The translations under genes and the position numbers were made by a program. DNA of 64,000 nucleotides from Deltaproteobacteria bacterium (GTDB lineage: Bacteria; Myxococcota; Myxococcia; Myxococcales; 40CM-4-68-19): positions 1-64,000 of the forward strand of contig VBKL01000053.1 in NCBI GenBank assembly GCA_005879805.1. Direction: 5' to 3'. The notes beneath the pieces are model-generated. The model did no database searches, was not told the origin of the DNA, and saw nothing but the letters and a program-made list of their open reading frames with translations. Below are positions 24,164-24,835 of the stretch, one piece after another; the first letter of the stretch is position 1, and the number at the start of each line of letters is the position of its first letter.

Positions 24164-24835
24164 ATGTCCGCCGGATTGGAAACAGCGCTCTGGCGCTTCA
24201 CCTACGAAGCAGTCGTGCGCACGGGCCGCGGGCCTTCCTTGCGCGAGGCCGCGGAAGCGCTCGGAGCGAGCGAATCCGAAGTGCGCGCCGCCTACCAGCG
24301 GCTCGGCGAAGGTCACGCCATCCTTCTCGACGCTTCCGGCGAGGGACTCTGGCGGATCGCACCCTTCTCCGCCGTTCCCACCGACTTCGCCGTCGAGGCG
24401 GGAGGCCGTTGCTACTTCGCCAACTGCGCCTGGGACGCGCTGGGGATCTGCGCCGCGCTGCACGCCGATGGCATGGTCCGCGCCAGCTGCGGCTGCTGCC
24501 GCCAGCCGATGGATCTCGCGGTCCGCGGCGGGATCCTCCAGACCGCCGAAGGACTGCTCCACATCGCCGTCCCCGCCAAGGACTGGTACCAGGATGTCGT
24601 CTTCACCTGAAGGACGATGCTGCTGTTCCGGTCGGAACGGCACGTGGCGCGCTGGTGCGAGCAGTGGCAGCGGCCCAGAGGCGGAACGCTGGACCTCGCG
24701 CAGGCGTGGGAGCTGGCGCGGGCGTGGTATGGCTCGCGCCTCGATCCCGGGTTCCGCCCCTTCACCCGGGAAGAGGCGCAGGCGCTCTTCGCCCGCGTCG
24801 GCCTGACCGGCCCCTTCTGGAAGCTCGGTGATTGA
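24164..24835 (+). CDS. MerB-like (alkylmercury lyase family) protein with in-frame UGA; candidate selenoprotein
   Basis: 24164..24610 ends ...AKDWYQDVVFT[TGA]; same frame continues RTMLLFRSERHVARWCEQW...PFWKLGD* to 24835; upstream NCAWDALGICAALHADGMVRASCGCC; SECIS-like hairpin after TGA. Confidence 0.82.
24621..24642 (+). promoter_or_regulatory. Putative bacterial SECIS hairpin
   Basis: TGCTGTTCC-GGTC-GGAACGGCA: 9-bp stem (one G-U), apical loop GGTC, loop begins 19 nt after the UGA (24608-24610). Confidence 0.78.

Follow-up and report, generated by a model that had tools for sequence, protein, structure and literature searches.

The window (the whole stretch of 64,000 nucleotides that was analysed) comes from a draft assembly of 291 contigs that is ∼88% complete, and carries a MerB-like gene on its forward strand at 24164–24835. 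The reading frame starts with ATG at 24164, runs for 148 codons to a TGA at 24608–24610, the single internal UGA in the frame, and continues for a further 74 codons to a terminal TGA at 24833–24835. Read through, it encodes 223 residues with selenocysteine at position 149 (U149). An earlier reading made from the sequence alone had described the same frame, open to the TGA and continuing to 24835, and had predicted that an ordinary gene caller would shorten the gene; the open reading frame as called does end at 24610.

The U149 codon (24608–24610) aligns with Cys159 of MerB and the matching cysteine of MerB2. The equivalents of the other catalytic residues of MerB are Cys88 (24425–24427; MerB Cys96), which is cysteine in 85/85 homologues, and Asp91 (24434–24436; MerB Asp99), which is aspartate in 84/85 and glutamate in 1/85. 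Cys109 (24488–24490), present as cysteine in 74/85, corresponds to Cys117, a structural residue of MerB that is not always kept. Residues ∼1–55 (24164–24330) form a helical, winged-helix-like N-terminal domain as in MerB, judging from the secondary structure of the model and the fold match to MerB2. Downstream of the UGA lies a bacterial selenocysteine-insertion (SECIS) hairpin, TGCTGTTCC-GGTC-GGAACGGCA (24621–24642), with a 9-bp stem and a GGUC loop at 24630–24633. The gene is flanked upstream by a protein without a Pfam match and downstream by argC and arginine genes.

Membership of the MerB family and fold

The read-through protein matches the Pfam MerB family (PF03243; E value 8.2e-27, 94.1 bits against a gathering cut-off of 27) over residues 68–190, a range that spans the UGA. 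The closest sequence of known structure is MerB2 (PDB entry 5c17; 1.7e-10, improving to 5.8e-23 with the family profile). The family profile also matches MerB and superimposes U149 on Cys159, C88 on Cys96, D91 on Asp99 and C109 on Cys117. The AlphaFold2 model has a mean pLDDT of 95.6, and in a fold search of the PDB all eleven matches with E values of 0.001 or lower are MerB or MerB2, the best being MerB2 (5c17) with a match extending over 193 columns. Assignment to MerB and placement of the UGA at an expected cysteine, both proposed in the sequence-only reading, are borne out by these results. The fold and the catalytic residues are established by comparison, and the protein is very probably a selenocysteine-containing member of the MerB superfamily.

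The NCBIfam MerB models NF009710 and NF033555 give only 30 and 26.5 bits, below their cut-offs of 193 and 200, and the SaoL model NF040728 gives 35 bits (17 to 56 for other members) against a cut-off of 140; no curated model matched the C96/D99/U159 subfamily over its cut-off. The protein also fails the screen used in PMC8261052 for Cys96, Asp99 and Cys159 (with Cys117), having equivalents of residues 96, 99 and 117 and selenocysteine at 159. Since no NCBIfam model exceeds its cut-off, these genes are prone to annotation as truncated merB, as in Rubrobacter radiotolerans. On a plasmid of that species (L106, 2468–2934), an annotated 270-base merB ends at the selenocysteine TGA; the remainder after the TGA runs in another frame and the copy looks decayed.

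Hairpin, recoding and selenocysteine machinery

The hairpin had been predicted as a 9-bp stem with a four-nucleotide loop starting with GG, 19 nt downstream of the UGA and matching bacterial SECIS constraints. The stem and loop are found at 24621–24642 and are present in the predicted minimum-free-energy fold. The spacing of 19 nt is correct as the distance from the UGA to the apical loop but not for the stem, the base of which sits 10 nt after the UGA. A bacterial SECIS is supported by G in the first two loop bases, a location 3′ of the UGA and conservation of both pairing and codon bias. The 61-nt fold reaches a z-score of only −1.5, and SECIS-like stems of at least 7 bp and at least 9 bp occur at 102/1130 and 17/1130 TGA triplets, respectively, on the two strands of the window. 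Hairpin energy alone was rejected as proof on account of this z-score and the frequency of similar stems; the window is rich in G+C and SECIS-like hairpins arise in it often, so that comparison, and not the hairpin by itself, carries the case.

Alignment of the homologues shows the seven core stem pairs formed in 94% of cells, compared with at most 62% in slid registers, and the loop GGTC in 77/84 homologues. In five sequences a compensatory change has turned the C-G pair between positions 18 and 31 into G-C. Codon choice is likewise constrained: arginine within the hairpin is CGG in 80/83 cases versus 31% elsewhere in the same genes (p ∼1e-37), and serine is TCG in 77/78 versus 32% (p ∼1e-37). 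The hairpin has been lost in a homologue with cysteine at the selenocysteine position (L023).

The 85 sequences compared comprise 80 of the 204 relatives returned by a scan with one genome per species, together with the window gene and its relatives within the order. The codon in the Cys159 column is TGA in 81, TAG in three and TGC in one. The TAG members belong to the Geodermatophilaceae (Geodermatophilus saharensis, Blastococcus capsensis and Blastococcus saxobsidens; loci L048, L069 and L095). The tRNA-Sec anticodon is CTA in these three genomes and TCA in the TGA-bearing genome G047, a correspondence between codon and anticodon that is hard to account for except by selenocysteine. Beyond the SECIS, 24 close gene pairs show 271, 201 and 577 differences at codon positions 1, 2 and 3, respectively (p = 2e-50); on this substitution pattern the sequence past the UGA is evolving as coding sequence. 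Comparison makes the presence of selenocysteine at position 149 near-certain, in the absence of experimental proof.

Two further observations concern the tRNA-Sec genes. Those of the Geodermatophilaceae with the CTA anticodon (L109–L111) are labelled tRNA-Pyl by ARAGORN, and the 13.2-Mb genome G047 has two tRNA-Sec genes ∼22 kb apart (L108 and L114), both with TCA and the second with an altered 5′ arm.

In the genome of the window, selA (492 bits) and selB (269 bits) are both above cut-off, selD scores 277 bits and a tRNA-Sec gene (72 bits) lies at 98261–98355 of the same contig as the MerB-like gene. A search for selA, selB, selC and selD had been suggested at the outset, and all four are found. 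Comparison thereby establishes the machinery, along with the position of the selenocysteine and the SECIS. Among relatives tested, selA was found in 11 of 12. No tRNA-Sec above the gathering score was found in G003 or in the genome of L040, both of which carry the gene, and this counts against the account; some candidates were unscored and the assemblies may contain gaps. The selD of the window's genome (L018, minus strand), which is cut by the contig end, has an in-frame TGA of its own at the usual selenocysteine site (SGUACK) and is a second selenoprotein in that genome.

The family is found in Acidobacteriota, Actinomycetota, Chloroflexota, Gemmatimonadota, Calditrichota, Planctomycetota and other phyla. 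Within the phylum of the window the gene is present in only five of 195 genomes (TGA in four and cysteine in one), a sparseness that counts against the best explanation, and it is absent from the genus-mate G011. In the tree the window copy is separated from those of the rest of its order and groups with an acidobacterial copy (support 100/96), and 22 changes are needed to account for the phylum labels; the labels of metagenome-assembled contigs can be wrong. As far as the tree can indicate, this distribution is consistent with spread by horizontal transfer. A search for relatives in viral contigs found none. Cysteine-type MerB-like proteins on a Paraburkholderia plasmid (L105) and a Sphingomonas plasmid (L107) have cysteine at the Asp99 position (CMWC and CLWC) and branch with L023, outside the selenocysteine family.

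A handful of MerB-like frames in Chloroflexota contain two UGA codons, at the Cys96 and Cys159 columns, with SECIS-like hairpins downstream. They form three different-looking groups (L139/L142/L148, L149/L153/L154/L155 and L156), representatives of which match Pfam MerB with values of 1e-13, 5e-17 and 4e-7, and are candidates for carrying selenocysteine at both metal-binding positions. In the first group the TGA codons lie at 1657 and 1882 (L139), 1690 and 1912 (L142) and 1672 and 1897 (L148), and in all three genomes the hairpins are TGCCCTT-CGTGC-AAGGGCA/G after the first TGA and TTCTTCT-GGTC-AGAAGAA after the second; its members are candidate double-selenocysteine organometal lyases. L149, with TGA codons at 1735 and 1936, groups with L153, L154 and L155, and the motifs of the two further groups are AQU-GFDALAV ... 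FRU-AGMNLFRSEEH and VPU-AIDFLLL ... GGU-RDNTLLRSEAH. One genome (G355) has three double-TGA MerB-like copies. On the minus strand of L150, a MerB-like frame nearer to classical MerB (TWCALDAVG) has a TGA (position 1711 in the reverse complement) close to where Cys159 would fall (VYSHLU-SRIGF), with what may be a hairpin; it perhaps represents an independent change from cysteine to selenocysteine.

Proposed activity and alternative readings

In the proposed mechanism, SelB and tRNA-Sec would decode the UGA at 24608–24610 as selenocysteine, directed by the hairpin just downstream, and Sec149 would stand in for the catalytic Cys159. The enzyme would cleave a carbon–metal bond by protonolysis, probably carbon–mercury, with both the reaction and the substrate being inferred. 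C88 and U149 would hold the soft metal, D91 would relay a proton onto the leaving carbon and the metal would then be passed to cellular thiols. At neutral pH a selenolate is in its ionised form, and its hold on mercury is tighter than that of a thiol. The inferred advantage of selenocysteine is that it would be deprotonated, more nucleophilic and a stronger mercury ligand at neutral pH. In MerB, Cys96 and Cys159 bind mercury and Asp99 moves protons (PMC4525700), and small selones are reported to break Hg–C bonds faster than the corresponding sulphur compounds do (PMC11639659). The suggestion that selenocysteine replaces a metal–carbon-cleaving cysteine stands in so far as the residue falls on the catalytic Cys159 column; metal–carbon cleavage by the window protein has not been shown. 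Lyase activity on organomercurials or other organometals, the identity of the substrate and the benefit of selenocysteine are all inferred, without data on expression, 75Se labelling or activity.

The UGA could alternatively be an ordinary stop, in which case the locus would hold a protein cut short at 148 residues, a pseudogene or two separate genes. The standard caller's open reading frame ends there, at 24610, and the R. radiotolerans plasmid merB is annotated to end at its TGA and is frameshifted downstream as well. This reading is nevertheless very improbable, with recoding of a stop at this column in 84/85 homologues, conservation of both the coding sequence beyond the UGA and the SECIS codons, and a codon that tracks the tRNA-Sec anticodon; the shortened form would also be without catalytic residue 159. 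An open frame across the UGA would be expected too if the codon were read as another residue, either tryptophan through a changed code or the product of near-cognate read-through. The residue that replaces it in L023 and in the outgroup MerB proteins is, however, cysteine, the genome has a complete selenocysteine system and UAG occurs exactly where tRNA-Sec reads UAG, so that decoding as another residue can hardly be entertained. A sequencing error for TGC or TGT is conceivable in a draft of 291 contigs but has a negligible chance of being correct, as TGA occupies the column in 80 other homologues from other assemblies. That error was one of the outcomes that would have refuted the original proposal; another, homologues with a residue other than cysteine or selenocysteine at this position, did not occur either, only these two being found in the column. 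The window gene is almost certainly read through by insertion of selenocysteine, and near relatives with the same recoding go unrecognised in bacteria of many phyla.

Given a selenoprotein, an organomercurial is favoured only slightly as the natural substrate. The protein could instead act on organotin, organolead, organoarsenic or organoselenium compounds, or its role could be metal binding or transfer, an interpretation that is rather doubtful but cannot be set aside. In support of a non-mercury substrate, MerA is above cut-off in only four of 28 genomes carrying the family and not in that of the window, where the best match (369 bits; assembly ∼88% complete) is below the cut-off of 454. A mercury operon was sought in the gene neighbourhoods and not found, no recurrent neighbourhood was seen among 82 loci and none of the curated MerB or SaoL models scores the protein above its cut-off. 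The scarcity of MerA and the lack of a conserved mercury neighbourhood count against the mercury reading; in current models MerB passes Hg(II) to MerA (PMC8261052). The exit of Hg(II) from a selenium–mercury site without MerA is unexplained, and a different organometal substrate is possible. Mere binding is opposed by the retention of C96-D99-C/U159 in nearly all members, which suggests the same protonolysis chemistry.

Relationship to known systems

The sequence-only reading had allowed that a MerB-like selenoprotein might not be new at the family level, and this proved to be so. SaoL (NF040728) is a MerB-like organometallic lyase (Haft and Gwadz 2023, cited through PMC13188914), reviews list the MerB-like selenoprotein WP_238493467.1, now SaoL, with the motif CU (PMC9312934, PMC13188914) and PMC7435645 counts an 'Organic mercuric lyase MerB2' among predicted selenoproteins. 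With SaoL and MerB2 already in reviews, the kind of protein is known. No earlier description of the full-length C96/D99/U159 group was found in a literature search that was incomplete and did not take in the primary SaoL literature. The main texts of Zhang 2008 and Peng 2016, which the reviews cite for the MerB-like selenoprotein, do not name one, and MerB is not mentioned in the deep-Sep work (PMC12013277).

A large survey of MerB required cysteine at residue 159 (PMC8261052). Selenocysteine forms would escape any mercury-demethylation survey built on such a Cys159 screen, since their annotated genes end at the UGA. It is an even question whether these genes represent a widespread, mostly unannotated family of selenocysteine-dependent organometal lyases that is missed by such screens, is independent of MerA and includes double-selenocysteine forms in some Chloroflexota. 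Mercury is held more tightly by selenium than by sulphur, and selenocysteine in the metal site of a carbon–mercury lyase would bear on selenium–mercury biology and on the breakdown of methylmercury in soils. The natural UGA, UAG and cysteine versions make the worth of selenocysteine in such a lyase directly testable.

SaoL resembles the window protein in being a MerB-related, listed selenoprotein and is the only named selenocysteine-containing MerB-like family found in the libraries. It differs in length (a model of 159 positions compared with 223 residues), in motif (CU compared with TU, the selenocysteine column of SaoL not being established) and in context, as SaoL lies in a multi-selenoprotein SAO operon whereas no operon is seen around the window gene. 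No protein above the cut-off of the SaoL model was found in 400 Chloroflexota genomes.

MerB of plasmid R831b (PDB entries 1s6l, 3f0o and 3f2f) shares with the window protein the fold and the positions of catalytic Cys96, Asp99 and Cys159, the last as selenocysteine. The identity in the fold alignment is only ∼21%, and the window gene has no mer operon and no MerA over the cut-off in its genome. MerB2 (5c17) is the closest solved structure by both sequence and fold; it has cysteine where the window protein has selenocysteine and serine at the Asp99 position, where the window protein keeps aspartate. Selenoproteins of the formate dehydrogenase type have the same decoding elements, namely a UGA, an adjacent hairpin with a G-starting loop, selA, selB, tRNA-Sec and selD, whereas the selenocysteine encoded in the window is set in an organometal lyase fold and not in a redox enzyme.
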